A stretch of DNA of 64,000 bases from an uncultured bacterium. GTDB taxonomy: Bacteria; Bacillota; Clostridia; Lachnospirales; Lachnospiraceae. Location: NCBI GenBank assembly GCA_947073545.1, contig CAMTMP010000007.1, positions 1 through 64,000 on the forward strand, read 5' to 3'. Shown in pieces: positions 43,645 to 63,211 of the stretch. The number at the start of each line of letters is the position of its first letter. The stretch's first letter is position 1. A program made the position numbers and the translations under genes. The notes under the pieces are model-generated. The model was given only the letters and a program-made list of their open reading frames with translations. It did not search any database and was not told the origin of the DNA.

Positions 43645-45711
43645 CTACAGCATGTCCATCATATCCGTCATGCGGTTAAAAAACGGATCTTCCACTTTTA
43701 ATTTCAAAAAATCATTATCCGTGATTTCCACCCCGTGAATCAAGGTCAGGAAAATTTCATCCAATCTCTTATTCGTCCTTCTGGCCGATATGGGACACAG
43801 TTTCAGATACTCCCTAAAGTATCCCCTGATCCCTTCCTGAGCCTCCTGAAAGCACCTGATGTCGCTTTCCTTTCTCGTTTCTTCCGCGTACACGGGATTC
43901 CCCTCTTCGTCAAACTCCCTGACCGAAGGCATTGGCGCCGTCAACATTGTCTCAAGGATGTAATAGTCCCGGAAAATAATGCTGTTGTTCATTTCTTCCG
44001 TATCATAAAAAGAAATGATATCCAGATCTTTCCCCCGCATCTGCTCCTTATCCAAACGCAGAAAATAGATTCCCTTCAAGTGCTGTTCCATCAGTCTGCC
44101 CATATACATCTGTGTTGTTCCCTTAGCCACAAAATCGAAAAATCCGGTTTCTCCCTCTTTCAATCCCAGCCGCCCGATATATGTACTGTAATTCTTTCTG
44201 CTGACGGCTGCCCGGTCAAAAATTTCCTGCGCGTAATCCATAAGATCTGCCCGTCCGTCCTTCTGCTTCTTCGCGGCACTGACCTGAATCCCAAACCGCT
44301 CCTCAAGCTGCTCAAACAGACTCCCGCTGAACTTCATGTCCCCCACATACCGAATATCCGCTTCACTCTCCATGCCTGCCCGGATTGCCGCCATCCGTGA
44401 TGTCAGGAAATATACGGAAGAAATCTGATTGCACAGTTCGTCATACAACTGCTTGACCAAATAACCGTCTCTGGCACAGAAAAGAATATTTTCAAGCCGG
44501 TGCCTTTCCGCCTGCTCACGGAACCACAAAACAAAATCGCATATCATGGGTGCAAAAAAGACATACCCGATATCATACGCCGTATGAACGCCAATCCGGC
44601 ATCCTTCTGTCTCAAACTGGAAGGGGCTGTTAAAAACATTAGCCACAAACATACCTATCCTAATCCTGTCTGACAAATTCTGTGTGTAATCCCACACCCC
44701 CATATACCCGGCGCACTCCAGTAAATCCATGCCGCTGTAAATACGACAGGCACTAATGCCATGTTTTTCAGCGCTCTCCACATCCGCGGCCGCATCATCC
44801 CCGATATGAAGATATGACCAGGCATCCGTCACCTGCTTAAACTCGTGAAAAAGTCCCTGCGTCTTTCCCGTCTCGTATTCACAGGAGACAAAAACATCTG
44901 TATAGTGTGTAATGCCACATTTCTTCAATATACCCACAATCTGTTTCTTATTATAGTAAGAATCAGACACGATATACACTTTCTTTCCCCGCGCCTCCAA
45001 ATCGGAAAGCAGTCTGCAGACCTCCCTGCGCGGAATCACCAGCCCGCAGTCAATCTCCCACTCCAGCACCGCCATCTGCTCCGGCTCAATCTCGGACAGC
45101 CGATATACCTGCCTCATGTGGGCATAAATCTCCGAAAGTCTCGGCGCGCGGTTTCTCGACAATTCCTTCTCACTCGCCATCCGTTTATCCGGAAAATCTT
45201 CTATGACAATTCCATGCTGCCTCAGCCGGTCATCCACCAGCTCGAACACATCCGCCGGAGACAACACCTGACGCATAATCAGTGTGTCAAACAAATCAAA
45301 ACTGACAGTGTCATATGTCAGGGCCTTTTGCATAATCTGGCTTTTCGTATAACCTGACACCTTTTTAAAGTCGTATACAACCCGCTTGGTATCACAAAGG
45401 TCATTGCCTCTTGTATCAAACAAGGCGATTTCCTTTTCCCTGCAGATGCCGCCAATCCGTTTGGCAATCGCCCGGCATGATCCCGGCCGTGCCGCAACCA
45501 AAATCAGCCTGACCGATTCCGCAATGGCTCTCTCCAGAGAAATGATTGGTTTCCCATAGAGGCTCCCGCTGCTTTGATAACTATCCAAAAGCCCGACTAC
45601 CCGGAAGCAGTCTCCGATTTCTTTGAGAACACGCTCCGTCTCTGCACCAAGCCCATATATGGCAATCTTACAGCCTTTGTATTCTTCTAAAAATTTTCGT
45701 AAATCGGACAC
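43645..45711 (-). CDS. HAD-superfamily protein of glycan clusters with N-terminal Rossmann-like module
   Basis: A 688-residue protein. Residues 14-104 form the cluster's Rossmann-like module (IAIYGLGAETERV, then GLLDS). From about 130 a HAD phosphatase-type domain starts with SFDLFDTLI and has KVYIVSDSYY and HIGDDAAADVESA, giving the full set of HAD motifs. The long C-terminal part (about 345-688) has FCARDGYLVKQLYDEL and belongs to the COG5610-type architecture often found in capsule loci. The start is GTG with GAGGAG before it. A role in polymer length, phosphate removal or transfer is possible; not known. Confidence 0.75.
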   Translation of the reverse strand: MSDLRKFLEEYKGCKIAIYGLGAETERVLKEIGDCFRVVGLLDSYQSSGSLYGKPIISLERAIAESVRLILVAARPGSCRAIAKRIGGICREKEIALFDTRGNDLCDTKRVVYDFKKVSGYTKSQIMQKALTYDTVSFDLFDTLIMRQVLSPADVFELVDDRLRQHGIVIEDFPDKRMASEKELSRNRAPRLSEIYAHMRQVYRLSEIEPEQMAVLEWEIDCGLVIPRREVCRLLSDLEARGKKVYIVSDSYYNKKQIVGILKKCGITHYTDVFVSCEYETGKTQGLFHEFKQVTDAWSYLHIGDDAAADVESAEKHGISACRIYSGMDLLECAGYMGVWDYTQNLSDRIRIGMFVANVFNSPFQFETEGCRIGVHTAYDIGYVFFAPMICDFVLWFREQAERHRLENILFCARDGYLVKQLYDELCNQISSVYFLTSRMAAIRAGMESEADIRYVGDMKFSGSLFEQLEERFGIQVSAAKKQKDGRADLMDYAQEIFDRAAVSRKNYSTYIGRLGLKEGETGFFDFVAKGTTQMYMGRLMEQHLKGIYFLRLDKEQMRGKDLDIISFYDTEEMNNSIIFRDYYILETMLTAPMPSVREFDEEGNPVYAEETRKESDIRCFQEAQEGIRGYFREYLKLCPISARRTNKRLDEIFLTLIHGVEITDNDFLKLKVEDPFFNRMTDMMDML

Positions 45712-45777
45712 TGTTTCTCCTCTTTTCCAAATATATGTGTTGCTGAAACATTTCCCCCCGCTTCGGTCTGTACCAAG

Positions 45778-47214
45778 CTATTTCCCGCCTGTTTTCTGCA
45801 CCTTTGACATAATATGCCGTACATTTTCTTCAAACACCCGCACGGAGAATACATTCTCGTACACTTTCCGCGCCAAAATACCCATATCGGAAAGCCGCTC
45901 CGGATGTTCTATGCACCAGACAAGCTTCTCCGAAAGCTGCTTGGTATCCCCGCTGTGAAACACGATGCCGTCCTGCCCGTCCTGTATATATCCCGCCGTT
46001 CCCGTAGCATCTGATAAAATACAGGGTACGCCGTGCATCATCGCCTCCGCCGCCACAGTCGGCATGGGGTCCTCTCTGGAAGGACAGATAAGCACATCTG
46101 CCTGTTCCAACAGTGCGTGAATCTCCTCCCTGTCCAAAACGCCCGTCATGACCGCCCCTGGCATGTTCTCTATTTCTTCTCTTATCCGCCCGGCAAGTAA
46201 GGAGGTATCCTGCCCGACCATATAAAAGACCGCTTTCCCGCGCATTACATCCGGCATATCCCGAAGCGCCTTTACCAGAATATCCTGTCCCTTTCTCATT
46301 TCTATATAACCGATTGTCACAAAACATACTCTGTCCCGGTCTGTGCTCGGTCTGTTTCCGGTTCCTTCACATCCTTCCACTTCATCCGCAACCCCATACA
46401 GCAAATCCTGTATGCTCAGATCCGTGCGGAATTTCTCCATAGCTTTTCTCGCCACAGGGCCTACTGCACAGACCTGCATATTTTTTCTGCTTATTGCTTG
46501 TAAAACCCCCGGGTTCACCCCGTCATAAAAAAAGGAAGAATCATGCAGCCACCAGACAACCGGCGTGTCCGTATTCCGTTCCGATAGGAACACATGAAAA
46601 TTGATGGTATTGCATACAATCAGGGAAAACTTCTCCGGCCATCCGGCATCGCGCATGGTTTCCACCTGTAAGTTGGCATCAACAATAACCGGGATTCCTG
46701 CCTGCACCAGTACTTCCCGCAGGGGGCCGTCCAGCATGGAAGCCATCACCACCTTTTTCTCCTGCTTAAGCAGCGCCAGCGCCATATGATAAAGGGCGAG
46801 CGACGGCCCTCCCATCGTAAGGTCATGCGTTAAAAGCAGGATCGCAGAAGACGGCTCAACTTGTTTCGCACCGCCATAATACTCGATGTTTTTTTTATAA
46901 TCGGCGGCCGCTTCCCCGTTCCCGCTGCAGATCAGCCTGTTCAAGTCATAAAAATGATAAATTTTTTCTTCCGGCACGCCAAGCTCCACAAGCTGCCGTT
47001 TCATCGTCTTCACATAAAAGCTTAAAATCACGATGATATCGTAGGGAAGCTGCACCCCCTGCTTTGGTGAAACCACAGGTATGCCTTCTAAAAGCGTGTC
47101 CTGCTTGTCCGGCGCGTTGTCGAGAAGCGCCAGGACATCCTCCCGGGGGAACCATTTTTTGTAACGGTTGTAGTAATCGCCGGTGCCAAAGAGAAGAATT
47201 TTTCTACCTGTCAT
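45778..47214 (-). CDS. GT4 glycosyltransferase with N-terminal Rossmann-like module
   Basis: A 478-residue protein. Residues 3-94 are the shared module (KILLFGTGDYYNRY, LLDNAPD, IIVILSFYVKT). The remainder is a GT-B, family 4 retaining glycosyltransferase: LTHDLTMGGPSLALYHMA in the N-lobe, and GYIEMRKGQDILVKAL, REDPMPTVAAEAM (the E-x7-E nucleotide-sugar motif) in the C-lobe. AGGAGAG precedes the ATG. It transfers a sugar from an NDP-sugar to the growing glycan in the cytoplasm; donor and acceptor are unknown. Confidence 0.88.
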   Translation of the reverse strand: MTGRKILLFGTGDYYNRYKKWFPREDVLALLDNAPDKQDTLLEGIPVVSPKQGVQLPYDIIVILSFYVKTMKRQLVELGVPEEKIYHFYDLNRLICSGNGEAAADYKKNIEYYGGAKQVEPSSAILLLTHDLTMGGPSLALYHMALALLKQEKKVVMASMLDGPLREVLVQAGIPVIVDANLQVETMRDAGWPEKFSLIVCNTINFHVFLSERNTDTPVVWWLHDSSFFYDGVNPGVLQAISRKNMQVCAVGPVARKAMEKFRTDLSIQDLLYGVADEVEGCEGTGNRPSTDRDRVCFVTIGYIEMRKGQDILVKALRDMPDVMRGKAVFYMVGQDTSLLAGRIREEIENMPGAVMTGVLDREEIHALLEQADVLICPSREDPMPTVAAEAMMHGVPCILSDATGTAGYIQDGQDGIVFHSGDTKQLSEKLVWCIEHPERLSDMGILARKVYENVFSVRVFEENVRHIMSKVQKTGGK

Positions 47215-47337: not shown

Positions 47338-48396
47338 TTAAGGTATCGCATACAGGACAGTATCATAGTCGGAAAACGAATAATGCCTCAAGTAAAATTT
47401 ATACCCGGAATGATAGCTTAAGATTGTCCGGGGAATCGTCCAGATATCATCCGGTTTATGATAAATACTGATTGCCAGCCGGGGCTTCTGTTCGGATAAG
47501 ATCCGCCCTGCGCCATGTAAGGCTTCCACCTCTGCGCCCTCGATGTCCATTTTGATAAACGTTACACCCTTATCAAGCAGAATGTCATCCAGCGCAGCAG
47601 CCTCTATCCCCTTCTGGTCGTCAAGACTTTTTTGCCCGGTCACAGAAGTTGCACAATTCCCTTTGGCGTCTATCGAAAGCCGCGTTGTCTTTGACCATAT
47701 GGCCTTTTCCATTATTTCAAAATTCCGGCTGCTTCCTAAATTCTTTTGGATCAAAGCGATATTGCAAGCATCTGGTTCCAGGCAATAGGAGTATCCGCTC
47801 CCGCCGCACCACGCAAGAAACTGTCTGGTTGTCTCCCCGTCGAAACAGCCGGCGTCCACAAAAACTTCCCGGCTTTTACAAGGAAGTAATTCCTCCAGAT
47901 CAAAGTAAATGGCTTTCTCTGTCAACTGATGAATCACGCTTCCCGCATCAATAATCCGGTCATCCGGGATACCCTGACTCCGTAACTGCCCTTTCATTTC
48001 CCGTAAGTTTTTGAAGGAGGACAGGACAATATATTCTCCCTGATCGTTATCTACAAACTGTTGAAAGGGGAGGATCGGTACAGGACTGTTTTCCCTCTCC
48101 ACAGGGTTGGAATCCACCATACATTTCCATGGCACTAACCCGCATGTCTCCCGGTATAGAATATTTCCCCACATTCCTGCGCCGAAAATAACAAGCTCCC
48201 GTTTTTCCGATAATTTTACCAGTTTGTCCAGAAAATTCTGCCATACCATTTTTGTCTTCATTACCCGGCCAATCATTTCGCGCAGGTAGGAAACATCCTG
48301 CGTAACGCTGTAATTAAGCCTGCTTATATAGATCATTTTTGATTCGTCGTCCTGCAGCCTTTTATAAATTTCCTGCAAGTTTCCAATCTCACACAA
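47338..48396 (-). CDS. FkbM-family methyltransferase with internal Rossmann-like module (copy 1)
   Basis: A 352-residue protein. The N-terminal 65 residues are helical. The shared module follows at 66-150 (ELVIFGAGMWGN, CMVDSNP, YIVLSSFKN). The FkbM SAM domain begins at about 176 with VFVDAGCFDGET and contains VTFIKMDIEGAEVEALHGA and PRLAISIYHK. Start is a TTG preceded by GGGAGGAAAGAG. FkbM enzymes O-methylate sugars or related hydroxyls. It is adjacent to, and shares its architecture with, the next gene. Confidence 0.85.
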   Translation of the reverse strand: MCEIGNLQEIYKRLQDDESKMIYISRLNYSVTQDVSYLREMIGRVMKTKMVWQNFLDKLVKLSEKRELVIFGAGMWGNILYRETCGLVPWKCMVDSNPVERENSPVPILPFQQFVDNDQGEYIVLSSFKNLREMKGQLRSQGIPDDRIIDAGSVIHQLTEKAIYFDLEELLPCKSREVFVDAGCFDGETTRQFLAWCGGSGYSYCLEPDACNIALIQKNLGSSRNFEIMEKAIWSKTTRLSIDAKGNCATSVTGQKSLDDQKGIEAAALDDILLDKGVTFIKMDIEGAEVEALHGAGRILSEQKPRLAISIYHKPDDIWTIPRTILSYHSGYKFYLRHYSFSDYDTVLYAIP

Positions 48397-48416: not shown

Positions 48417-49469
48417 TCAGACTGTCGCATAAAGAACCGTTTCCGCCGGCGAATAAAAATAATGCCGGATATAGAATTTATATTCCGGGACAAGCTCGTG
48501 TATATAAGTGGGTATATCCACCAGATCCTCCCATTTATGGTAAATGCTGATGGCAAGCTTCGGTCTGTATGTCTGAATCAGGTTTCTGCTTCCCTGCAGC
48601 GCCTTTATCTCGGAACCTTCAATATCCATCTTGATAAAGGTGACCTTCTCCTGTATCACACTGTCTAACGACACCACCTCTATCTTCGTTCCCTCCTGCA
48701 CGTCACAGCGGATCTTTGACATCATGTCTCCTGAAGCGTTAAAATACAGGCTGGCTGGCTGATCCCAAAGCCCGCAGTGAAACACTTCCACTTTATCTCC
48801 ACACTGCAGTCTTTCTATATTTGATTTTACTTTTTCCAGATTCCGCTCATCCGGTTCAAACGCATAAATCTTTTTTACATCGCAAAGCTTCATTAATTTT
48901 TCGCTGGACTCAAAATCATAGCAGCCGCAGTCGACAAATACTTCTCCGTCCTGATATTCCATGATGCTCTCTTCAAAATACTGCTTTAGCTGATGCTCCA
49001 ATGTAATCCGGCTTACTAACGGTATGATGCAGTCGTTGCTGAAATATTTTTGAAGATATGCCACAACCTCTTGTGTATAGTCCGATGTGCCAACTACCAC
49101 TGTCGCGTCCAAGTGCTTTTCTACCAGTTCTTCCGGCGAAATGACTTTGATGCCAAACCTTTCCGTTCCCTGTTTTGCCTTGTCCCTGTCACACAGAAAC
49201 CTGACCGGGTGGCCAAGCGCCTGGCAGCTTTTTATAGATGCCTCACACATATTCCCGGCGCCGTAAATAATTATTTTACCGGACTGTATCGCTTCCAGTC
49301 TTTGATAATTTTCAGGATCTCTGTTCATAATAATTTGCAGCCAATACTTATCTTCACCGGTAATCATGTACAAAAATTTCTTCCTGAATATTTCCCGGGA
49401 TTCCTCATCCTCAAGGGAAAAATATACTTTTCTCGCCTTCTTTATAAACGCCGCCGATTCACACCCCAT
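48417..49469 (-). CDS. FkbM-family methyltransferase with internal Rossmann-like module (copy 2)
   Basis: A 350-residue paralogue of the downstream gene: helical N-terminus, module at 64-142 (GKIIIYGAGNMCE, FLCDRDKA, ATVVVGTSDYTQ), then the FkbM domain from about 165 with VFVDCGCYDFES, FIKMDIEGSEIKALQG and PKLAISIYHKWED. The two proteins end similarly (FYIRHYFYSPAETVLYATV against FYLRHYSFSDYDTVLYAIP). AAGGAGA precedes the ATG. A tandem duplication with divergence in specificity is likely. Confidence 0.85.
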   Translation of the reverse strand: MGCESAAFIKKARKVYFSLEDEESREIFRKKFLYMITGEDKYWLQIIMNRDPENYQRLEAIQSGKIIIYGAGNMCEASIKSCQALGHPVRFLCDRDKAKQGTERFGIKVISPEELVEKHLDATVVVGTSDYTQEVVAYLQKYFSNDCIIPLVSRITLEHQLKQYFEESIMEYQDGEVFVDCGCYDFESSEKLMKLCDVKKIYAFEPDERNLEKVKSNIERLQCGDKVEVFHCGLWDQPASLYFNASGDMMSKIRCDVQEGTKIEVVSLDSVIQEKVTFIKMDIEGSEIKALQGSRNLIQTYRPKLAISIYHKWEDLVDIPTYIHELVPEYKFYIRHYFYSPAETVLYATV

Positions 49470-49486: not shown

Positions 49487-51043
49487 TCACCATCTGGCCA
49501 TCTCATCAATCACTTCGCTCAATGTAATCATTTTCCCTTCGCATCTGTCTTTCAACTGCCTGCCTATCGAGTCCGCATCATAAGCCGTAATAATGACGGC
49601 ATCCACGGCAGGAAATCCCTCCTCCGGGCGGAATATTTTAAAGTCTTCCCCAAACTGCCCCACATAACGGTCAATGCCAAAAAGCGGCGCAATCCCTTCC
49701 CTTTTCAACTGGATCAATACATGTTTCCCCAAAGCCGCCATGCCATAGATCGCAACCGTATGAATCCCTCTGTCCTGAAAATACCGCTTAAAATTCACCC
49801 TTCTTTCCTGTTCCAGAAACAGCCATCGGTCTATCAGTTCAAACAGGCTCTTAAACTTCTGTACATTGTCGTTCAGCGCTTTCATCTCCGCTTTTACCGC
49901 TTCCTGCGCCTCTTCTTTCACGTCTGTTTTTTCCCAATGATATGATGCATTCACGACATTTTTAATGGCCTTCAAATAACCGTACCCGTCCGTCATATCC
50001 GGCTCGAGGTACATTCCTTCTCCCCATTCGTTCCATGCATTGACAAAAAGAAACTCATTTTCAGCATTTATGCTCTTTTGCACAAGAGCTTTCAACTGCC
50101 GTTCAAATATGTCAGGAGCCGCATTAATCAGGCACTCGCCGCTCGTTCCTCTTCTGGGCGTATCATCATATCCCGAAACGCCGCAAAAATAAGTTTTAAA
50201 TCCATAGACAGGCTGGGAAGCATTGATACACTCCCATATCCTTTCGTAGTCAAAGCATCTGACTCCTTCCCTGATGCGGGCTTCCCCGCCTGCGTTTAAC
50301 GTGTTGATGCTGTTTCTCGGTTCGTATATAATTGCCGCATCCAGATATGGATTCGGCGCGCTCAGCCGGGAACCAATCAAATACAAATCGTCTATTCCCG
50401 CCTTTCTTGCCAGCCTGCGCCAGCATTCCGTCATCTCTCCAAACGGTTTTATATCGTTCGGGCTATAAAAAATAAATACCGGCCTGCCGTCCTTTTTTAT
50501 GTATCTGTCATCCTGAAAAAACGGCAAAAGATACGCAAAATGTTTTGCCCAGTCCTCCTCGTTTCCATAGTCCTGTTCCGCCAGTATCCCGCTTATGGAA
50601 CCGGCCCCGTCCGTTTCCTGCCTTTCGTATTTTTCCGCCCATACGTTCCCCGTAAACCTGCTCCATGACCTGATCCACGATTCACTTGCCCAGTTAAAGC
50701 AAAACGGCATCTTTATGTCTTTCCATTTCAGCAGATTCTCCGCCGGAAGCTCCAGCTCTTTTTTCCCGTCTTTAAAATAATAATGATAAAAGCAAAACCC
50801 ACCGACGCCATATTCTGCCGCCAGCCTTGCCTGTGTCTCCAATACTTCCTTTTGGCTAAGATCATAGTAATGCTGGTCGAGCGGTACCCTTGGCTGATTA
50901 TGCCCGGGAAAATATGCCTCCGCCGTTTTTACCGTCTCCCAGTCTGTGAACCCCTCTCCCCACCATAAATTATTGTCCTTTGTCTCATGAAACTGCGGCA
51001 GATAAACCGCTAGAATCTGAGGTGTTTTTCTCTCATTTTTCAA
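49487..51043 (-). CDS. WbsX-like (GH99-type) protein with C-terminal Rossmann-like module
   Basis: A 518-residue protein. Residues 1-350 are the WbsX/glycosyl hydrolase 99-like domain found in O-antigen and capsule loci: AVYLPQFHETKDNNLWWGEGFTDW, GFCFYHYYF, FCFNWASESW and FVNAWNEWGEG. After a helical linker, residues 428-518 are the shared module (VAIYGMAALGKHV, FGIDR, VDAVIITAYD). The start must be TTG with GGTGAG upstream, overlapping the preceding gene by 11 bases; the next Met is near residue 94. It may cleave or transfer mannose-type residues; not proven for this family. Confidence 0.82.
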   Translation of the reverse strand: MKNERKTPQILAVYLPQFHETKDNNLWWGEGFTDWETVKTAEAYFPGHNQPRVPLDQHYYDLSQKEVLETQARLAAEYGVGGFCFYHYYFKDGKKELELPAENLLKWKDIKMPFCFNWASESWIRSWSRFTGNVWAEKYERQETDGAGSISGILAEQDYGNEEDWAKHFAYLLPFFQDDRYIKKDGRPVFIFYSPNDIKPFGEMTECWRRLARKAGIDDLYLIGSRLSAPNPYLDAAIIYEPRNSINTLNAGGEARIREGVRCFDYERIWECINASQPVYGFKTYFCGVSGYDDTPRRGTSGECLINAAPDIFERQLKALVQKSINAENEFLFVNAWNEWGEGMYLEPDMTDGYGYLKAIKNVVNASYHWEKTDVKEEAQEAVKAEMKALNDNVQKFKSLFELIDRWLFLEQERRVNFKRYFQDRGIHTVAIYGMAALGKHVLIQLKREGIAPLFGIDRYVGQFGEDFKIFRPEEGFPAVDAVIITAYDADSIGRQLKDRCEGKMITLSEVIDEMARW

Positions 51044-53206: not shown

Positions 53207-53231
53207 TTTAACCCTCACTCTGGTATTTGGA

Positions 53232-54230: not shown

Positions 54231-54342
54231 AATAGTCCTCCATGACAAAAGCGTTTGTTCAATCAATGCATATGTAAGGCTCTGGCTCAAATTACTAATT
54301 TAGAAAATCACTATATCCGCATGATTTTTCAAACGAATCCTG

Positions 54343-56010
54343 TCATTTAAATTGTATTGTCTGCGTAAATACACTTTTTTCATAATGATTGATATATTTC
54401 TCCTCCCCCTTTTCCCCGCACACATATTCACCGAATTTTCTTTCCATCCTCCGGTAAATGGGGAGATGCTCCTTCCTGATTCCTGCTTTCACCGCAAACT
54501 CTTCCTGAGATAACTGCGGCCGCAGGTAGGCTGCAAATTTGTCGTATAGCTGATAAACCGCCCGCCATAAAACATATTCATACGGAATCGGGAACTCAAA
54601 AACCCATTCGTAATCAAAGTTAACAGGCTTTCTTCCCTCTATCATCTTAAAGTTTGAAAATATCAGGTCCGCGTTTGTGACGGGTAAACTGTACTCCCCC
54701 TCCGGTGCCTGATCCCCAAACACACGCACAAACTCTTCTGTCATGACAAAAGGAATCTTCTGTTCTTCTCCCGGCATCAGGTATTCCCGTATCAGACGTT
54801 TTAACGCTTCAATCATGGCATCCGCCGAATGCCTGTAACGGTAAAAAGATACATCCAGATTGATACCGTCAACATAAGGTGTCTGATACTGCCCGTTGAC
54901 CATCTCTCCGCTGACATAATCAATTCCTGACAAAGTTCCCTTCCACTTTCTTTCCTTTTCTGACAGTGCCGCGATATGTTCTGCCGCCTCCTCATGCAAA
55001 GCGGACTTTATCACTCTCCTGCCGTCTCCTTCCTTCACAATGCAGGTCTTCATCCGGTACTGCTTTTTCCTCAATCTGTTATAGCGCGAGAAAGGAACCT
55101 GTATTTCTGTATCTCCGCAGATGAACAAAAAAGAGTTGGAAAAATAGGAAAACACAGAATCCGTACATATCTGGTCAAAAGCCGCCGCATCATTAAAGTG
55201 GTAAACACGGCAGTCTGCGTAATCCTTTTTGAAATACCTCAAATCCCCCGCCTGGGGCAGCATATCGTCACTGTAAATCACATCCGGCAGCTTATAGTCG
55301 GACGCCGGATAATAAAAAGCTGCCTTTCCGATTCCAGCCTCATCCAAGATCTTTTCAATTTCAGGCTTTGAAAAAGTTCTCACCTTTTTCTCCCCGGCAT
55401 AATCGTTGATACCGCTGTACATCTTCGCCGTATGATCCTCCGGCGCCCCGTTAAAATATTTCAGTCCCATCTTGTTCTCGATGGCTACGATGATTTTTCC
55501 GCCCGGCTTCAGGTATCCTTTGATCTTTTGCAGCATGGAAATGTAAGGTTCGTCGCCGCCAACGTAAAGTCCCGCATACTCCCATACGCCGATCAATGTG
55601 ATATAATCATACTTTTCCTCTATCAGAATATCTTTAAAGTTCCCTACTTTTATTTCTATGTTATCCTGTTTCCGGTTTCTCTCTGCGTTTATAAGAGAAC
55701 GCCTTTTAGACAACTCAACACACGTTACCTTCTTTACCTTTCTACTAAACAAACCTGTGAGTGCGCCGCACCCGGAACCGATTTCTAAAAGGCTTGCACC
55801 CGGGTCAAACGGATACCATTCCAGAATATTCTCCCTGATGTCCGACAAATGATACAGAACCGCCCACTGGCTGCTGCTCCTTAGCAGCCGCTCACTCGTA
55901 CCGTCACGGAATGCCTCTAATATGATATCCTCAATGTCGCCGTCCGAATATCTGTCCTCACCTGTATAAAAAGAATAATCCAAAACCACATTTCCTATTT
56001 TTTCTTTCAT
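54343..56010 (-). CDS. SAM methyltransferase with kinase-like C-terminal region
   Basis: A 555-residue protein. The N-terminal part (about 40-260) is a class I methyltransferase with motif I LLEIGSGCGAL, VTCVELSKRR and LKPGGKIIVAIEN. The C-terminal 250 residues have KEGDGRRVIKSALHEEAAEHI, then NADLIFSNFKMIEGRKPVNFDYEWVFEFPIPYEY, which recalls the catalytic loop and DFE-type metal motif of aminoglycoside-phosphotransferase-like kinases. That C-terminal reading is an inference from motif spacing. GAGGA precedes the ATG. It lacks the Rossmann-like module. Confidence 0.78.
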   Translation of the reverse strand: MKEKIGNVVLDYSFYTGEDRYSDGDIEDIILEAFRDGTSERLLRSSSQWAVLYHLSDIRENILEWYPFDPGASLLEIGSGCGALTGLFSRKVKKVTCVELSKRRSLINAERNRKQDNIEIKVGNFKDILIEEKYDYITLIGVWEYAGLYVGGDEPYISMLQKIKGYLKPGGKIIVAIENKMGLKYFNGAPEDHTAKMYSGINDYAGEKKVRTFSKPEIEKILDEAGIGKAAFYYPASDYKLPDVIYSDDMLPQAGDLRYFKKDYADCRVYHFNDAAAFDQICTDSVFSYFSNSFLFICGDTEIQVPFSRYNRLRKKQYRMKTCIVKEGDGRRVIKSALHEEAAEHIAALSEKERKWKGTLSGIDYVSGEMVNGQYQTPYVDGINLDVSFYRYRHSADAMIEALKRLIREYLMPGEEQKIPFVMTEEFVRVFGDQAPEGEYSLPVTNADLIFSNFKMIEGRKPVNFDYEWVFEFPIPYEYVLWRAVYQLYDKFAAYLRPQLSQEEFAVKAGIRKEHLPIYRRMERKFGEYVCGEKGEEKYINHYEKSVFTQTIQFK

Positions 56011-56023: not shown

Positions 56024-57262
56024 CTATCCTTTATTTTCTATACAGGCGATAATCTGTCCGAGATATATTTCATCATCCACGTCCTCCACTTCCGCCGGGG
56101 GAAGCTGCGAGACATATTTTGTCGGGTTAGGTACTTTTTTCCCTGCCCCTGCGCGATACCACTCGTAGTCCATATCCATCTGCCCGATATCTACCACCTG
56201 ATGCCCGCAGTTAATCAGGTCATAAGCCAGCACCTTCCCGGCCGGCCCAAGGACGCATAAAACCAGTTCGTCTTTAATCAGGTTTTTCGCTGTTTCCAAT
56301 ATCTCCTGATACTTTGCGTACGCGTTTTGGGTTGGACAGAGGATTCGCCGGATAGATTTCACATTGTCGAACAAATCGTTGCCCTGTCCCGTTCTTGTCT
56401 GCGCTCCCTCGATTAAAATAACGTCCCGGTCCTGCCATATCCTTTTGACAAAACGCACCCGCTCGGCAGTCCCCGATTTGTCCTTATACGGATAATAGCA
56501 TTTAAACAAATACGCATTATAGTATATCCGGTTTAGTCTCAGCAAAGAAAGATGCCTCGCCCTGGTTTCCTCTGTCATATACCCACGTATCCCATCCGCA
56601 ATTTCCTCAGAATACAATTCCAGATTCCCATAATTATCGGCAATGCCAATCAAAATATTTTCCTGTTCTGTCTGGATAACCTCTTTTAACCGGCTCCCCA
56701 GCTCTCCGTCATACTTTTGAAAATTGACACGGTCATTTCCTGCTATTATTTCAAATTCACCATCCCCAAACCGGATCATGGAGCATTTTTCATTCACAAT
56801 GCGGTTGACCGCTTCCTCACCGCTATGTATCATTGGAAATCGGTATCCGTTTTGCCGTATCTTATCGGCGATCTCATATCCGGCATTATCCAAACGGATA
56901 TTTACTACTCTTTCCAGCTCTTCCAGCCGTTTTTCGAGAATGTCAATCTTCCATCCCTTACTGTCAAAGAATACCCGTATTTTTTCCTCACTTTGACTGC
57001 CATCAAAATAGAATAAAACCTTCTCCGGGTCTGTTTTGCTTTGGCGGAGCTGATATGCAATAGCCGCATAGTTCACTACGGTAACTACGAGATAGTCAAA
57101 GTCATTTTCCACATCTTTGAACCGGACAATCGCCCTGCCCTCAAAATACTGTCCTGTATGTTCAGGATTGTTATCAATGAAGCCGGTGATTTCCTCTGTA
57201 CCTGTATAATTATGAAGCGCTTTACGGCAGCCTTTTCCCGTTCCCCAAAAATATAGTTTCAT
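56024..57262 (-). CDS. GT-D fold glycosyltransferase (DUF1792) with N-terminal Rossmann-like module
   Basis: A 412-residue protein. Residues 1-88 form the shared module (KLYFWGTGKGCRKAL, FIDNNPE, YLVVTVVNYA). The catalytic part (about 145-400) is the GT-D/DUF1792 type first described for pneumococcal DGT1: MIRFGDGEFEIIAG, VILIEGAQTRTGQGNDLFDN and DIGQMDMDYEWYRAGA. Such enzymes add glucose or similar sugars during protein or surface glycosylation. AAAGGAACGGG precedes the ATG. Confidence 0.87.
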   Translation of the reverse strand: MKLYFWGTGKGCRKALHNYTGTEEITGFIDNNPEHTGQYFEGRAIVRFKDVENDFDYLVVTVVNYAAIAYQLRQSKTDPEKVLFYFDGSQSEEKIRVFFDSKGWKIDILEKRLEELERVVNIRLDNAGYEIADKIRQNGYRFPMIHSGEEAVNRIVNEKCSMIRFGDGEFEIIAGNDRVNFQKYDGELGSRLKEVIQTEQENILIGIADNYGNLELYSEEIADGIRGYMTEETRARHLSLLRLNRIYYNAYLFKCYYPYKDKSGTAERVRFVKRIWQDRDVILIEGAQTRTGQGNDLFDNVKSIRRILCPTQNAYAKYQEILETAKNLIKDELVLCVLGPAGKVLAYDLINCGHQVVDIGQMDMDYEWYRAGAGKKVPNPTKYVSQLPPAEVEDVDDEIYLGQIIACIENKG

Positions 57263-57282: not shown

Positions 57283-58449
57283 TTAGACTTTAATAACCGC
57301 CCTATAAAATCTGAGAAGATCTTTTACTACATAATCCGGATGTAATTTCTCTATCCTCTCTTTTGCCCGCTTTCCCATTTCCTGTTTCTCCTGCACATTC
57401 ATTCTCGCCGCCATTTCCATTTTTATCAGTAAATCCTCCGAATCACCGATTCGACACAGCAATCCGTTTTTCTTGTGTTCTATCAGTTGTTCAAAACTCG
57501 CTCCATCCGTTCCTATCACTACCTTTGAAAGCGACATAGCTTCCAGACAGGCATTTGGGAAATTGTCAATTATGGAAGGCAGCACTACAAATTCCGCATG
57601 TTCTATTACCGGATATAGTTTTATGTGCTCTAACGGTTTCCCAATCATTACTCTGTTTTTGCATCTTCCTGCTCCTTTCATGATAATATCTACTGCCGGT
57701 CTTCCATTAACCGAAAGAGCATCTCCGATAAAGACAAAATAATAATCCTCATGACACTCTAAAAATCTCTCAAGAATTTTGGCAATAACCGTTATACCCT
57801 TTGCATAATATATTCTGCCAAAAAACAGCGCATATTTTTTCCCTTTTAAGTGCGTATCATAAAAAGAATTATCATGTACTTTAACATCTTGAATATATGG
57901 CGTCTCAATAACATAGGTTCGTTTCTTAAAGTCTTTCTGATAAGCATCTGCCATCACATTGCTGGGCGCAAATACCGCCCGACAACGTTTCCCGGCAAAA
58001 ATCTCCAATACTGACGCCACAAAAACAGAACACCTTTCCATTGAATCATACGTAGGATTCTGTTTCCTCGTATAAGATGATAATCTCATTATTGCCGGTG
58101 TTTTGCCGTTATAAAGCAATGATATGGCATTTAAAGACGTGAACTGAATAATATCTATATTTTCCAGTTTTACCAGTTCTTTCAACCGATTATTCAGGTA
58201 ATAGCTTCTACATACCGAAGCGAAAAAAACGTTTAGCCAGGAATACGCTGTATTAACAATTCGGCACTTAACTCCATATATTTTTATTCCGTCTTCAACC
58301 CTGCAGGAATCTCTGTCACTGCAATATACAATAACCGGCGTGTGCCCCATATCTTTTAAAGCATGAGATACCTTATATATATACATAGGAAATCCATCCT
58401 TTGGAATCCCTCTGTCTACATACCCATTGGCTGCATATAAAATATTCAT
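57283..58449 (-). CDS. GT4 family glycosyltransferase
   Basis: A 388-residue GT-B glycosyltransferase without the Rossmann-like fusion. N-lobe phrase DGFPMYIYKVSHALKDMGHTPV; C-lobe FFGRIYYAKGITVIAKIL, IGKPLEHIKLYPVIEHAEF and the nucleotide-sugar motif NFPNACLEAMSLSK. Its stop is 20 bases before the GT-D gene. Base composition is more A/T-rich than in the core genes. The start codon lies one base after the deacetylase stop, so the two are coupled. Confidence 0.88.
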   Translation of the reverse strand: MNILYAANGYVDRGIPKDGFPMYIYKVSHALKDMGHTPVIVYCSDRDSCRVEDGIKIYGVKCRIVNTAYSWLNVFFASVCRSYYLNNRLKELVKLENIDIIQFTSLNAISLLYNGKTPAIMRLSSYTRKQNPTYDSMERCSVFVASVLEIFAGKRCRAVFAPSNVMADAYQKDFKKRTYVIETPYIQDVKVHDNSFYDTHLKGKKYALFFGRIYYAKGITVIAKILERFLECHEDYYFVFIGDALSVNGRPAVDIIMKGAGRCKNRVMIGKPLEHIKLYPVIEHAEFVVLPSIIDNFPNACLEAMSLSKVVIGTDGASFEQLIEHKKNGLLCRIGDSEDLLIKMEMAARMNVQEKQEMGKRAKERIEKLHPDYVVKDLLRFYRAVIKV

Positions 58450-58450: not shown

Positions 58451-59410
58451 TCAGTTTTTCCTTATCCGCAAACTTTTTCCGTACCGATAAACAAATTCTG
58501 TCAACCCAATCCCCTTGTAATCCTCCTTCATATAGGAAAACAACTCCTCCAAATCACAGTACAGCTTTTCAATTTGCCTTTCACTTCCAAACGTAGGGCT
58601 GCCGCCGGGCATTAACTCTGAAGAATGGAGCATAAATTCAATATACGGCTGCCGTGTTTTCTGGTTCCAATCAACGATTGCTTTCATATCTTCCAAGTTA
58701 TTCCCTGTCGGGCGAAACCATTTATGTACAATTGCTTGTTTGCATGTGCGGGGATGAAGACATGCTTCCAAATGTAAATTCGGTTTTATAGTGACCGGGA
58801 CTTCTATCATCTGTGATTCCCTGTCCTTTGAAATATTATAAATTCCTCTTGGAAACAATCTATAATCTGTTCCTCTGCTGTTTTTTGTCTGACCTGTAGT
58901 ATGACGCCAGCTAAGGCCGGGCGTAACCGTGCAGTCTGCAATATATCCCTTTTGAGCAAGAAGTCCAACATATTTTTGGTCTAAATACCATCTGCCTCCC
59001 CTGTGGCTTTTAATAGGTGTCTGAAAAGTATCTTCCAAAAGCTTTGTCAGATAGTCAATTTTCTGTTCCAGAATGTACATGGGATATTCCCCTGCATAAG
59101 CCTTATTTCCCCCCTGTCTATCCGGCAATGAATATAATGGCGGGCTGTTAAATGCATGAAGGTGCATTCCGATTTCCAGCTTTTTATTTTTCAGCCCTTC
59201 TTTCGCCAACTCCTGCAAAGGCTCCGATAATGCCATCTCGTAATTTGTCAGATAGGTGGGAACGAAGCCGTATTTTTCGCATAACATCTGAAAACGTTCT
59301 AAATAAGCGCCATTTTTATTTGTGATTCTGCTCAGCGCTTTCTCAGAGTTTCTAACCCTCCATAAATTGTCTCCCTCGGTATCAATTGTAATAATAAATT
59401 TTTTCTTCAT
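58451..59410 (-). CDS. Polysaccharide deacetylase-like protein (NodB-type fold)
   Basis: A 319-residue protein starting with the catalytic strand FIITIDTEGDN (Asp10, Glu12, Asp14). It continues with EIGMHLHAF, which places the metal-binding His pair, and SHRGGRWYLD, which resembles motif 3. This is a CE4-like divalent-metal deacetylase fold as found in capsule loci. There is no signal peptide, suggesting a cytoplasmic lipid-linked substrate. AGAGGAACGG favours the ATG at 59408-59410 over one six codons upstream. Confidence 0.82.
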   Translation of the reverse strand: MKKKFIITIDTEGDNLWRVRNSEKALSRITNKNGAYLERFQMLCEKYGFVPTYLTNYEMALSEPLQELAKEGLKNKKLEIGMHLHAFNSPPLYSLPDRQGGNKAYAGEYPMYILEQKIDYLTKLLEDTFQTPIKSHRGGRWYLDQKYVGLLAQKGYIADCTVTPGLSWRHTTGQTKNSRGTDYRLFPRGIYNISKDRESQMIEVPVTIKPNLHLEACLHPRTCKQAIVHKWFRPTGNNLEDMKAIVDWNQKTRQPYIEFMLHSSELMPGGSPTFGSERQIEKLYCDLEELFSYMKEDYKGIGLTEFVYRYGKSLRIRKN

Positions 59411-59433
59411 GGCCGTTCCTCTGCCCATATTCC

Positions 59434-60345
59434 CTATGTCATATAAATATTAACCATCGGGTACCAATGCTTTGTTTCAATCTGCTTTTCTATTTGAAAT
59501 ATGCCACTGTCCAGAATCATATCGTGGCACACCGTATTAATATATATGATTCTGATTTTTCTATGGTTTCGCATATAACTGTCTTTTATATTATCTATTA
59601 CCTTCTGAAAAACAGAACCGCTGAACGGATTATAAAAGTAAAAATAATTGTATCTGTCAATTTCTGTGATTTCACGCGCGTCCGCACAGCATATTTCTAT
59701 ATCACTGATTTTCAACCTGTCAAAATTGTCCTGCGCTATCGTACATAGTTCCTGATCTCTCTCGACTCCGCCAAGATTGCGAAAACCATACTCATAAAAC
59801 TGAACCAATGCGGCTCCTTTTCCCATTCCGTAATCAAATATGGCATCATCGCTTTTCAGTGATACTGATGATACGATTTCCTTAATTGTCATATATGGAG
59901 ATGGCGTATATTCCGCACACTCAAAACTCTCGTTTCTTTTATTCTCAAGAAAATCACATCCGTATTTGTCTTCCATCCATATAAGAAAATTTAATGACTG
60001 TCCTTTGTTATCGTCAAAAAGCACCTCCCGCACGTCGAAATAGTGCTGATCTTTCAATGCGCCTATTTCTTTGCACAGCATTTCAGGCTCTTCCGTATCT
60101 TTCATACATAAGAAAATAAATACACCCGCAGGGTCCTTCGTTTTTAAGAACTCCGCTCTTTGTATTCCCTCGTTCGTATCATTTTTATCAATTATGCTGA
60201 CTTGATATCCGCCACGCTTTTTCAAATAGTCATATAGAAATTCTCCGATCTCACAGTAATATCCCCATATGATAATTTCTTTCTGCCTCGCCCCGCTGCC
60301 CTCTAAAACTTTCTCCAGCCTTCGTCCCATTTCATCCCAAAACAT
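59434..60345 (-). CDS. Class I methyltransferase with N-terminal Rossmann-like module
   Basis: A 303-residue protein. Residues 21-108 form the shared module (EIIIWGYYCEIGEF, SIIDKND, VFIFLCMKDTE). The SAM domain (about 150-303) has motif I IFDYGMGKGAALVQ, GGVERDQELCTIA and the motif IV-like NYFYFYNPFSG. Asn-Pro-Phe after the strand recalls nucleic-acid or amine methyltransferases, but the substrate here is probably a sugar or lipid-linked glycan. GAGGGGAG precedes the ATG. Confidence 0.78.
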   Translation of the reverse strand: MFWDEMGRRLEKVLEGSGARQKEIIIWGYYCEIGEFLYDYLKKRGGYQVSIIDKNDTNEGIQRAEFLKTKDPAGVFIFLCMKDTEEPEMLCKEIGALKDQHYFDVREVLFDDNKGQSLNFLIWMEDKYGCDFLENKRNESFECAEYTPSPYMTIKEIVSSVSLKSDDAIFDYGMGKGAALVQFYEYGFRNLGGVERDQELCTIAQDNFDRLKISDIEICCADAREITEIDRYNYFYFYNPFSGSVFQKVIDNIKDSYMRNHRKIRIIYINTVCHDMILDSGIFQIEKQIETKHWYPMVNIYMT

Positions 60346-60372: not shown

Positions 60373-61473
60373 TCAAAACAGTAATGTAACCAAATTCTTG
60401 TCTCTGAAATACCCGAACTCTGACAACTTACTTTCCAATTTTTGAAAGGTCTGTTCCTGTAGTGTCATTAATAACAGATGCCGGCCACCATCAAAGCGTT
60501 CCAAGTCTTCATCCCGTAAATACTGTGCTTTTTCCGGTGCTTTTGCATAATTATCAAGAATTTTGTAATGTGTGTATTCCAGACGTTCCATTTCATCCCG
60601 CACATATTTCCCTATTTTGCCAAATCCGTATATGATGATCTCTTTCTCTTGTTCTTTCATTATATTTTTTAATTTGTCATCAATCATTTTGATCATTTTA
60701 CAAGGTATTGCAAAACCGGATTGATATGTAATCACATTTCCGCCAAATCCGCGTTTGAAATCAGCTATAGCATGGGTTTCCTCAGAAAAATCCGATATCC
60801 CGTTAAAATCATAGATCTCATACCCTTCCGATTTAAAATACAGCATATCCTGATAATGCATCATCCTATTCGCGCGTCCAATCAGGTTTTTATACTGTAC
60901 ATATTCTTCCTTTCGGTACAGAGAACATGATGTGGCAAGCATCGCCCGTTTGTCCTCTTTGTCCAGATAATAAGTATGTTCAACAAGCAGTGTACCGTCA
61001 CTACTATAGCATTTCGTCACCGCATACATCCCATCTGCGGCTAATTTTCTGATTTTAGCCTCTCCTATATGTCCCAGATTCTTTAAATCGGCAAAAGCAT
61101 TATACAGTGTAAGAAATTCCTGCAGTTCTTGTTCTGATATGTCCATTAGAAATTCCGTACAGAGTTCGTCCCTATTTAGCGCACGCCTGACTTCATAACG
61201 CGTATTCTTGGTCATTTGCTGCAAAAGCTCTTCCGGCGATTTTAACAGAGACACTTCTATTGAATGCGTATGATTTCCCCGGCAGCCACCATATTCTATA
61301 AAGCTCATAACAGCCTTGTATTTATCAAAAACATCGTCGCTGACATTCTGAGGATAAATTACGTTTAAGGAATCATAATCGCTATACTCTTTTTCAATCG
61401 TGTCAAGGTTTAAACCTTTACTAAAATAAATGACACAAATTGACCTGTCATTTTCATTGAACACGAACTCCAT
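60373..61473 (-). CDS. FemAB/GNAT-like acyltransferase with C-terminal Rossmann-like module
   Basis: A 366-residue protein. The N-terminal 270 residues look like a FemABX/GNAT-fold acyl- or aminoacyl-transferase: MTKNTRYEVRRALN in the first half, then YDFNGISDFSEETHAIADFKRGFGG, the pattern that in FemAB proteins ends the catalytic domain. Residues 277-366 are the shared module (EIIIYGFGKIGKYV, KILDNYA, HLLLMTLQEQT). It may attach an amino acid or acyl group to an amino sugar. GGAGAGAG precedes the ATG. Confidence 0.72.
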   Translation of the reverse strand: MEFVFNENDRSICVIYFSKGLNLDTIEKEYSDYDSLNVIYPQNVSDDVFDKYKAVMSFIEYGGCRGNHTHSIEVSLLKSPEELLQQMTKNTRYEVRRALNRDELCTEFLMDISEQELQEFLTLYNAFADLKNLGHIGEAKIRKLAADGMYAVTKCYSSDGTLLVEHTYYLDKEDKRAMLATSCSLYRKEEYVQYKNLIGRANRMMHYQDMLYFKSEGYEIYDFNGISDFSEETHAIADFKRGFGGNVITYQSGFAIPCKMIKMIDDKLKNIMKEQEKEIIIYGFGKIGKYVRDEMERLEYTHYKILDNYAKAPEKAQYLRDEDLERFDGGRHLLLMTLQEQTFQKLESKLSEFGYFRDKNLVTLLF

Positions 61474-61486
61474 TTACTCTCTCCTG

Positions 61487-61969
61487 TTATAACTCAAACA
61501 AAATATCCTCTAAGGACATGATCTCTATATTCGATTTTGCTTCTAATTGTTCTTCGATTTCATTGTAAAAATATATTGCCGTCACAATAATTGCATCCAC
61601 ATTCTCCAATTCATCCTCCGGGCTTACGATAACAATGTCCGAATATATACTCGTTGCGTTTTTGTCAATACAATACCGCACACTGATATCAGAATTTTTC
61701 AGCTCTTCATATAAGCGCTGCCCCACAAAACTCATGCCGTAAATAGCAATGGATTTAATATCATGCGCATGAAAATAATCTGTGATTGACTTTCCTTCCT
61801 GCTTTGTCTGCATCCATCGGTCATACAATTTCATAATGGCCAGATGCTTGTTCGCTAACTGCTGGCTTTCATCTCCTCCTATCACTTTGCCTGTCGCAAC
61901 TACTCCTCCAATCGCGCCTATAGCCGTACCTGTTAATAAAGATAAAATACTCACTGCCCCTTTTTTCAT
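61487..61969 (-). CDS. Stand-alone Rossmann-like module with an N-terminal membrane segment
   Basis: A 160-residue protein. Residues 4-30 form one hydrophobic helix rich in Gly, Ala and Thr. A helical linker (about 40-68; LYDRWMQTKQEGKSITDYF) leads to the module at 70-160: SIAIYGMSFVGQRLYEEL, YCIDK, VDAIIVTAIYFYNEI, ending LEDILFEL. It closely resembles the C-terminal modules of the WbsX and PIG-L proteins, including the RW...G..I linker. No catalytic domain. AGGAGG precedes the ATG. It could be a membrane anchor or scaffold for the other enzymes (inference). Confidence 0.78.
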   Translation of the reverse strand: MKKGAVSILSLLTGTAIGAIGGVVATGKVIGGDESQQLANKHLAIMKLYDRWMQTKQEGKSITDYFHAHDIKSIAIYGMSFVGQRLYEELKNSDISVRYCIDKNATSIYSDIVIVSPEDELENVDAIIVTAIYFYNEIEEQLEAKSNIEIMSLEDILFEL

Positions 61970-62017
61970 TGCAATTTCCTCCTAAAACCTGTAAATTTTT
62001 CATTTCTATATTACACT

Positions 62018-63211
62018 TTAAAAATCATCCAGCAAAATGCACTTTCTCTTACTTTTTATCTCATGAATAAAATCCTCGTAACCCTTACGCGGAAATGCTA
62101 GTATAATCAAGTCACAATCCGGAATCTCCATATACGGTTTAATGACTCGGATTCCTTTATATTCTTCAACTGACTGATCGATTCCTGCAACAATGTCAAC
62201 CCCATTTTCCAGTAATAAATCGCAAAGCGGCTTTCCCCTTTTTCCTAACCCCCATACAATAATTTTCCTATAATTATTACCCGTAACATAATCTTTCACT
62301 TTATATCTTTGTCTTTTCTCCGTCTCTTCCAGCATTTTTTCATGTATAAACAAATTGCTGCTTACTACTGCATTATATATCCGCAAAAGTTCTTTTTCAT
62401 AATGCAATTTAATGATATTATGGTATTCATCCAGCACACTTTTTTCAGGCATATACTCCCATGTCATACTAAGCATCCAGAAAATGTCCCTGACATTTTT
62501 ATATGTGTCTTCCGTAATCTGAAAACAGCCAATATTGATCAATTCATCCTTATCATTTAAAAATGTATACTTATCCGCACAGACAGTACCGAGTAAAATT
62601 TTAGTAGCTACGCTTTTCTTTACCGCGATTATATCCGAAGTCCCTTCTAAAATACCCAAATAGTTCAGCGAAACATCATGCACCAGAACAACCGCATCTT
62701 TTGATAAATACGGAAGTATAGCAAGAAAATCCAACAATTCCCCCGGCAGAACGTGAGCGCTGTCAATAAAAACTAAATCTATACCCTTTCCTATTCTCTC
62801 TAACTGCCCTGCGATTGTCCTTCCTGTTAGTATGGATACCATCTTATCCCAACCGTACTTATCATTGAAATAACTGCAGATACAGCCAGATTCATATCTG
62901 TCGTCATAATACAGCTTCCTCGATAAATCTACACCATATACTCTGCTGTCCAGTTCGAGCATTGAAACTGCCTTTGCAATTACGGCCGTAGTGCCTCCTT
63001 CTGCAATCCCTATTTCAACAATTTTTTTAGATTTACGCTCTCGAATAATTCCGCATATTAGCGCCTGATCAAAATCCCTTACCTGCCTTCTCTCTATGGT
63101 CCATTCTTTTGGCACCTCATTAAGAATCTCAAGCGGTTCATACCAACAATCTGCCCTCATAATTTGCATTCTCCCATTTCTATAGTGAAACACTTTATAA
63201 TAGTATTCCAC
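62018..63211 (-). CDS. CmcI-like/Methyltransf_24 methyltransferase with C-terminal Rossmann-like module
   Basis: A 397-residue protein. The SAM domain (about 50-240) has KIVEIGIAEGGTTAVIA, VYGVDLSRK, DLVFIDSAHVLPGELLDFL and VLVHDVSLNYLG, the pattern of CmcI-like and Methyltransf_24 enzymes. Residues 315-397 are the shared module (KIIVWGLGKRGKPL, AGIDQS, DLIILAFPRKG). The GTG at 63209-63211 has GGAAAG upstream and overlaps the amidotransferase stop; an ATG 17 codons inside (63160) is the alternative. Confidence 0.8.
   Translation of the reverse strand: MEYYYKVFHYRNGRMQIMRADCWYEPLEILNEVPKEWTIERRQVRDFDQALICGIIRERKSKKIVEIGIAEGGTTAVIAKAVSMLELDSRVYGVDLSRKLYYDDRYESGCICSYFNDKYGWDKMVSILTGRTIAGQLERIGKGIDLVFIDSAHVLPGELLDFLAILPYLSKDAVVLVHDVSLNYLGILEGTSDIIAVKKSVATKILLGTVCADKYTFLNDKDELINIGCFQITEDTYKNVRDIFWMLSMTWEYMPEKSVLDEYHNIIKLHYEKELLRIYNAVVSSNLFIHEKMLEETEKRQRYKVKDYVTGNNYRKIIVWGLGKRGKPLCDLLLENGVDIVAGIDQSVEEYKGIRVIKPYMEIPDCDLIILAFPRKGYEDFIHEIKSKRKCILLDDF

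Follow-up and report, generated by a model that had tools for sequence, protein, structure and literature searches.

A homologous Rossmann-type module on twelve genes of a putative glycan locus in an uncultured Lachnospiraceae bacterium

Introduction

How soluble glycan enzymes of differing fold and origin gather and stay in step is an open question in the field. It is raised anew by a stretch of 64,000 nucleotides from an uncultured Lachnospiraceae bacterium (assembly GCA_947073545.1, contig CAMTMP010000007.1, positions 1–64,000; hereafter the window), whose contig, C7, belongs to a 4.37-Mb genome in 94 contigs. Positions 43645–63211 comprise 16 consecutive minus-strand genes, and a first-pass annotation made from the sequence had proposed that 12 of these share a module of 80–90 residues. 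Here we ask whether these modules are one family, whether they mark one pathway, and what they may do. Sequence comparison confirmed that the twelve form one homologous Rossmann family of ~90 residues.

Twelve remote copies of one module

All twelve modules were found where they had been proposed, with profile boundaries within ~40 bases (for the stand-alone copy, 61496–61759 compared with 61490–61762). The other four genes, encoding the Stealth protein (53232–54290), a methyltransferase (54343–56010), a GT4 glycosyltransferase (57283–58449) and the protein at 58451–59428, gave no module match at E<1. Judged from the alignment, which holds one invariant Gly and one invariant Asp and in which the modules are 13–21% identical to the first row, “similar” means remote homology. 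When each module was sought with a profile built from the other 11 (open reading frames of the fetched stretches, database size set to 4000), 12/12 were recovered in the right place, 11 of them at E values of 2e-14 to 1.5e-3 and the protein at 59434–60345 at 0.061; for the latter and the FemAB-like protein the alignment covered only ~40 residues. Comparisons between profiles placed the modules of the stand-alone family in register with those of the FkbM (E 5.7e-8, P 95%) and GT-D families (E 7.3e-6, P 84%); the HAD family (E 0.008, P 5%) and 59434–60345 (E 7e-4, P 26%) matched weakly.

A profile search of the whole genome yielded 44 matches at E<=1, of which 41 fell within three stretches (contigs C7, C4 and C15): 12 in the described run, three more on C7 (67, 83 and 86 kb), 16 on C4 (58–92 kb) and 10 on C15 (20–49 kb); three were elsewhere. 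Of the three further C7 matches, the one at 83 kb (E 0.03) comes from a GFO/IDH/MocA oxidoreductase and is not a module. Iteration over the fetched stretches gave 45 modules at E<=3e-12, followed at 0.004 by a sequence that we read as ThiF-like; as members sit in their own profile, this gap is meaningful and the E values themselves are not. The three loci hold 44 of the 45 clear modules, and one is on C10. This lone module protein (C10:80762–81844) appears by eye to be an FkbM methyltransferase, and BLAST groups it with FkbM proteins. A generic Rossmann background was rejected for this genome, in which many other Rossmann proteins, such as 23 PF01370 matches, remained unmatched.

The pattern shared by the modules had been described correctly, although its GxGxxG element is often degenerate. 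In 785 unique modules (the one conservation table that pools the set of surveyed genomes with the 79 loci introduced below, identical rows removed), Gly occupied the three GxGxxG positions in 97, 78 and 61%, and the proposed Asp at the end of strand 2 was present in 77%. The first glycines and this Asp are among the best-kept residues.

Predicted fold and likeness to known domains

AlphaFold was run on two of the twelve copies, the stand-alone protein and GT-D, the latter picked over FkbM as more divergent. The stand-alone model has a helix at 32–57 and the module at ~73–159, with a predicted local distance difference test score (pLDDT) mostly >90 in the module and <50 for residues 1–30; the GT-D model reached a pLDDT of 86.8 and a predicted template modelling score of 0.83. 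The models of these two divergent copies agree with each other, which for the two supports the single fold that had been claimed. A Foldseek comparison of the stand-alone model with the PDB returned no match at E<=0.001, and the structural-match ranks used here come from a second aligner. The module models matched 2g6t and Rex and, for one model, also the domain of unknown function (DUF) of WbaP and the module-bearing FkbM enzyme; matches of the GT-D module included WeeI, VioB and Pcryo_0637. From sequence and models, the module would be a nucleotide-binding Rossmann domain of the Rex, PglD N-terminal and WbaP-DUF class, acting as an accessory domain on enzymes that assemble or decorate surface glycans.

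In a Pfam scan of 20 window proteins, which named the catalytic parts of most of the 16 genes, the module carried no domain above threshold. The FkbM 2 protein gave sub-threshold Rossmann matches to F420_oxidored (19.4 bits), Methyltransf_14 (18.5) and PglD_N (14.8), and also to CoA_binding. PglD_N (PF17836), the N-terminal domain of PglD/NeuD with solved examples in VioB (7txp) and WeeI (4m9c), probably belongs to the fold class of the module; that 14.8-bit match is below the cut-off of 23.4 and the only one at E<=1 in the window. In the whole genome it is the Pfam family matched by most modules (8/45 at E<=0.1, best 5.3e-5), followed by 2-Hacid_dh_C with seven. PglD_N domains are known from acyltransferases, whereas the module sits on dozens of enzyme families, and no module protein in the window matches Hexapep, the left-handed beta-helix acyltransferase domain of PglD. 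Beyond the window, one C4 module protein falls just below the Hexapep cut-off (26.1 compared with 27 bits), and 3/118 sampled module proteins match.

The nicotinamide adenine dinucleotide (NAD(H))-binding domain of Rex has GxGxxG and an acidic residue after strand 2 in common with many modules, though not all. Unlike Rex, the module proteins of the window have no Pfam match to a winged-helix DNA-binding domain at E<=1, and their architecture is not that of a transcription regulator. Another structural match is the N-terminal part of 2g6t, an uncharacterised protein of Clostridium acetobutylicum which we take to be CAC2185, the basis of Pfam PF22674 (“C2185-like_N”). That family gave no window match at E<=1 and matched 5/45 modules of the genome at E<=0.1, one C15 protein with 20.1 bits (cut-off 27) and 4/118 sampled module proteins at E<=0.001; no literature match was found for CAC2185. 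The C-terminal domain of KijD1-type C3-methyltransferases (5t64/5t67), presumably linked to Pfam Methyltransf_14, is also among the closest known systems.

The WbaP DUF (PF13727, CoA_binding_3; 8t53) shares its fold with the module in one of the two models; it has no match in the 20 window proteins at E<=1 and is not among the 50 matches listed for the stand-alone model. PMC10942596 describes this domain as part of initiating phosphoglycosyl transferases, finds structural relatives of it in PglF-like dehydratases, and reports dimer contacts and a sensing role. In the FkbM methyltransferase 2py6 from Methylobacillus flagellatus, module and FkbM domain align together over profile positions 60–354 at 1.8e-49, and two genes of the window have this two-domain form. 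As the form has been solved from an unrelated bacterium, the FkbM module is a regular component of that group of enzymes. For this copy the objection that each module merely belongs to its own enzyme family thus holds; the homology of the twelve stands.

The domain class and single fusions (FkbM 2py6, KijD1, WbaP, PglD) are already known. 2py6 is a single enzyme and the run described here is a tagged gene set; what goes beyond the single fusions is the tagging of much of an assembly pathway together with a stand-alone anchored form, a combination reported in none of the papers listed by our literature searches (open-licence PMC, titles and abstract starts, some hit lists shown in part).

Concentration in three putative CDP-polyol loci

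The genome has 54 GT2 and 31 GT4 matches. The module was present on 6/12 of those inside the three module stretches and on 0/73 outside (Fisher p 2e-6; a test only partly independent, as we set the bounds round all modules, most of which are on other enzymes). Tagging of one pathway, as first suggested, is thus specific in this genome, and a general trait of its glycosyltransferases is rejected by the 0/73. Large glycan regions such as contig C3 had no module in the genome profile search.

Four of the five IspD matches over the cut-off lie in or beside module loci (on C15, ~4.5 kb from the first module gene) and one, presumably housekeeping, on C41; a sixth (C24) is below the cut-off. Because of this placement, the TagF-like and GDPD genes also found on C4 and the Stealth gene in the window, the gene content suggests that the three loci build cytidine diphosphate (CDP)-polyol, teichoic-like polymers. 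A flagellin glycosylation island was rejected, since none of the flagellin genes (at 149.7 and 158 kb of C4 and on C42, C1 and C2) is found beside a module locus; the sole Wzz match, on C38, is not beside a module locus either. The C4 locus has a phage-type integrase gene (C4:53000–54145) nearby, ~4.4 kb from where its module genes begin.

Distribution and partner enzymes

At E<=0.001, 20 of 21 genomes (20 relatives and G000) matched the module, among them 12/12 genus relatives with 1 to 38 copies each. At 1e-5, matches were found in 30/60 genomes at the family level and 40/119 at the phylum level, most of these genomes (21 of the 30 and 35 of the 40) having just one or two. Five or more matches were found in G000, G069, G030, G036 and G053 (family) and in G106, G163 (4/5 clustered) and G170 (phylum). 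Lone matches in other family and phylum genomes whose open frames measure 210–240 aa look, judged by this length, like Rex or NeuD, and such single matches were left out of the module loci.

Nineteen regions from ten genomes, picked for their matches, held 186 module proteins, or 179 under stricter boundaries. The module was N-terminal in 77 of the 179, C-terminal in 74, internal in 8 and stand-alone in 20, which bears out the variable position noted at first. When GTDB contigs were scanned with the family of the anchored stand-alone protein, 147 stretches could be confirmed, and the best 80, representing 79 loci, were retained; part of them are the same contigs as in the genome set, and the counts of the two sets were not summed. 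By title, 62 loci belong to Lachnospiraceae, 3 to Clostridiaceae and one each to Eubacteriaceae, Bacteroidaceae and Muribaculaceae (the last two being contigs of metagenome-assembled genomes), and 11 have no family. At least one other module gene (E<1e-3) lay within 10 kb in 79/79 loci and at least three in 73/79, and the module was present on 540/1312 neighbouring genes (41%, crude open reading frame calling).

Of the complete module proteins, the 466 whose catalytic part had at least 120 residues fell by single linkage into 74 catalytic families, although BLAST over-splits these and the true number of folds is lower. In a Pfam scan of 118/398 non-redundant module proteins and 118/444 plus-strand non-module neighbours, the families listed included, on the module side, GT2 (22), GT4 (12), several methyltransferase families, FkbM (9), RgpF (8) and GT-D (5), and on the other side GT4 (15), GT2 (11), GT11 (6), epimerase (5), NTP_transf_3 (5), DegT (4) and IspD (4). 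The two sides overlap, and as the best 25 of 60 and 25 of 127 families were listed, an unlisted precursor family could include up to three module members. Further partners in the genome of the window are DUF1796, citrate-lyase-ligase-like, WcbI, xylose-isomerase-like, GT8, TupA and TOD1 proteins and, with catalytic matches below the cut-off, sulfatase-, GDSL- and hexapeptide-like proteins.

Inheritance of the module

The nearest neighbour of 179 modules had the same catalytic family in 105 cases (chance 6%) and the same locus in 9 (chance 6%). On a poorly resolved FastTree tree of 260 modules (89 columns), catalytic family changed 125 times, compared with 192 after shuffling (standard deviation 3), and locus 232 times, compared with 231 (standard deviation 2.6). 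Clustering of copies by locus, a check proposed in the first-pass annotation, was not seen: modules of different families were 20.0% identical within a locus and 19.8% between loci, and those of the same family in different loci 29.0%. As similarity follows catalytic family and not locus, the sequences indicate that modules are inherited mostly with their enzyme, that enzymes are shuffled between loci, and that modules occasionally jump. Movement as a unit finds support in 42 module pairs at least 40% identical, up to 46% over 89 aa, on catalytic parts unrelated by BLAST (both genes complete, each catalytic part >=200 aa; pairs 60–100% identical were dropped, as most involved genes that were truncated by a contig end or seemed to be broken).

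The gene run and its stand-alone protein

The features of the run, which extends on the minus strand from an Asn synthase gene (63195) to a zinc dehydrogenase gene (41168), are given in Table 1. The stand-alone protein has a transmembrane-like hydrophobic N-terminus, and in 54 relatives the 19-aa hydropathy of this N-terminus was 1.33–2.33 (>=1.6 in 48/54). A crude hydropathy scan of the 16 genes found a transmembrane-like segment only in this and the CmcI-like protein. The stand-alone profile (158 positions) is matched from position 22 by WbsX and from position 32 by PIG-L; C-terminal modules such as these bring along the preceding helix.

Table 1. Genes and modules of the described run in window coordinates; relatives are homologues with >=70% coverage in the 79 fetched loci.
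Feature	Position	Strand	Evidence
Zinc alcohol dehydrogenase, IspD-type cytidylyltransferase, ribulose-phosphate-epimerase-like; without module	41168..43623	-	PF08240, PF01128, PF00834
HAD-like protein, 688 aa, N-terminal module	43645..45711	-	PF00702; leave-one-out E 8.5e-5; kept in 11/11 relatives
HAD-like protein module	45415..45675	-	profile match
GT4 glycosyltransferase, N-terminal module	45778..47214	-	PF00534; leave-one-out; kept in 17/17 relatives
GT4 module	46930..47208	-	profile match
FkbM-type methyltransferase 1, module preceding the catalytic domain	47338..48396	-	PF05050/TIGR01444; kept in 16/16 relatives
FkbM 1 module	47929..48204	-	profile match
FkbM-type methyltransferase 2, module preceding the catalytic domain	48417..49469	-	PF05050; kept in 21/21 relatives; solved homologue 2py6
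FkbM 2 module	49005..49283	-	profile match
WbsX-type glycosyltransferase, C-terminal helix and module	49487..51043	-	PF14307; module in 7/12 relatives
WbsX module	49505..49765	-	profile match
Methyltransferase, N-terminal module	51033..52127	-	PF08241; kept in 9/9 relatives
Methyltransferase module	51864..52127	-	profile match
PIG-L-type deacetylase, C-terminal helix and module	52163..53242	-	PF02585; kept in 7/7 relatives
PIG-L module	52175..52444	-	profile match
Stealth-type phosphotransferase, without module	53232..54290	-	PF11380/PF17101/PF17102; module in 0/7 relatives
Methyltransferase, without module	54343..56010	-	module in 0/2 relatives
GT-D glycosyltransferase, N-terminal module	56024..57262	-	PF08759; kept in 11/11 relatives
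GT-D module	56993..57262	-	
GT4 glycosyltransferase, without module	57283..58449	-	module in 0/14 relatives
Protein without Pfam match at E<=1, without module	58451..59428	-	module in 0/8 relatives
Methyltransferase-like (Pfam below cut-off), N-terminal module, weakest copy	59434..60345	-	leave-one-out E 0.061; module in 2/3 relatives
Module of methyltransferase-like protein	60016..60285	-	profile match
FemAB-like protein, C-terminal module	60373..61473	-	PF02388; no relative found in 79 loci
FemAB-like module	60379..60651	-	profile match
Stand-alone module protein, 160 aa: hydrophobic N-terminus, long helix, Rossmann module	61487..61969	-	AlphaFold model; N-terminal hydropathy 1.92
Stand-alone protein module	61496..61759	-	profile match
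Methyltransf_24/CmcI-like protein, C-terminal module	62018..63211	-	PF13578; CmcI model below cut-off; kept in 2/2 relatives
CmcI-like protein module	62021..62275	-	profile match, cut at stop codon

The zinc alcohol dehydrogenase gave a weak partial match to the module profile (E 0.3). Past the window the locus continues with cytidylyltransferase, carbamoyltransferase, DegT and NeuB genes, and the same run includes a WcbI-like protein (below cut-off) with a module (C7:66121–67371), a 114-aa stand-alone module without a hydrophobic N-terminus (C7:85646–85990), and a set of ATP-binding cassette transporter genes (permease, NMT1-like binding protein, ATPase) with an AMP-binding enzyme (C7:67619–71635). 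Elsewhere in the window, the protein at 15324–17444 has an acidic repeat (EGGEASADAEPE type) close to its N-terminus.

Possible roles of the module

We tentatively favour, as a reading with slightly less than an even chance of being right, that the module binds one small ligand common to the pathway and thereby coordinates its enzymes. At a guess, this would be a nucleotide of cytidine or uridine that the transfer steps set free, with NAD(H) as the main alternative. Binding would gate activity, and possibly association, so that the enzymes respond together, and the anchored stand-alone copy, where present, might be a membrane-bound sensor or tether. A common ligand is favoured by the well-kept residues at the ligand edge, by the reported sensing role of the WbaP DUF and by the finding that likeness does not follow the locus, which argues against locus-specific docking codes; between ligand and docking the sequence data lean to the former. 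Several findings weigh against a shared pathway nucleotide. The likeness to NAD-binding Rex equals that to uridine-binding domains, and Val replaces the strand-2 Asp in ~15% of the modules, perhaps a subclass with another ligand; with GxGxxG often degenerate as well, nucleotide binding may be altered or absent in some copies. An IspD-like gene was present within the fetched stretch in only 22/79 loci, which is a lower bound. The module also occurs on a citrate-lyase-ligase-like protein of C15 and, on C4, on a xylose-isomerase-like protein and a methyltransferase/module/CTP_transf_like fusion; precursor enzymes, nucleotidyltransferases of the precursor type included, are thus not wholly free of the module. 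Finally, no full-length anchored copy was found in 5/12 genus genomes (G002 among these has a relative with another hydrophobic N-terminus, and three are <90% complete) or in 7 module-bearing genomes outside the genus, which weakens a membrane hub as an obligatory part.

The same absence counts against an assembly scaffold, in which modules would bind each other or the anchored copy and keep the enzymes membrane-bound, with the ligand site secondary or lost. We consider this less probable, yet still a serious candidate. It accords with the hydrophobic N-terminus in the 54 stand-alone relatives, with a transmembrane-like segment confined in the run to that protein and the CmcI-like one, with the long helix ahead of the module that WbsX and PIG-L share, and with the dimer contacts of the WbaP DUF. 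WbdD, a membrane-associated recruiter of a glycan polymerase, offers a precedent (PMC11231755, PMC3482155). That modules are no more alike within than between loci is contrary to a locus-specific homotypic code. The anchored copy and the helix speak for a possible assembly role alongside ligand binding. In the full combination, one Rossmann module would have moved between dozens of unrelated enzymes and onto a membrane-anchored protein lacking a catalytic part, and would make the enzymes that build and decorate the polymer of a CDP-polyol glycan locus answer to a single nucleotide and assemble at the membrane. Such a pathway-wide, metabolite-gated assembly is rather unlikely.

It is improbable that the module has no common function and is an old, ordinary part of each enzyme subfamily, with loci collecting such enzymes by horizontal transfer. 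Relatives do usually keep the module (all those of the HAD, GT4, two FkbM, 51033–52127 methyltransferase, PIG-L and GT-D proteins; Table 1), WbsX and the protein at 59434 being exceptions; the module tree tracks catalytic family, and 2py6 carries the module in an unrelated bacterium. This would, however, leave unexplained the untagged GT2/GT4 proteins elsewhere in the genome, the tagged neighbours in the 79 loci, the stand-alone copies and the related modules on unrelated catalytic parts. Slightly less probable still is a substrate-binding extension that holds a nucleotide end or the growing acceptor polymer for the catalytic domain, as in NeuD/PglD-type acetyltransferases, for although PglD_N is the family most often matched and WeeI, VioB and Pcryo_0637 resemble the GT-D module, the module also occurs on enzymes with no need of a sugar nucleotide (methyltransferases and a PIG-L deacetylase), on the sulfatase- and GDSL-like proteins, and on a protein without a catalytic part.

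Implications

Much of one pathway is visibly tagged, in many related bacteria, and the 160-residue stand-alone form could be purified for tests of ligands and partners. If the metabolite-gated assembly were true, the module would serve as a plug-in tag by which any enzyme could enter an assembly line, and loci could be rebuilt by gene swapping. Should a common ligand or partner be found, the tag would become a marker for placing unknown genes in the pathway and a part for building glycan pathways. In practical terms, a name is gained for many terminal regions of glycan enzymes that lack annotation in these bacteria.

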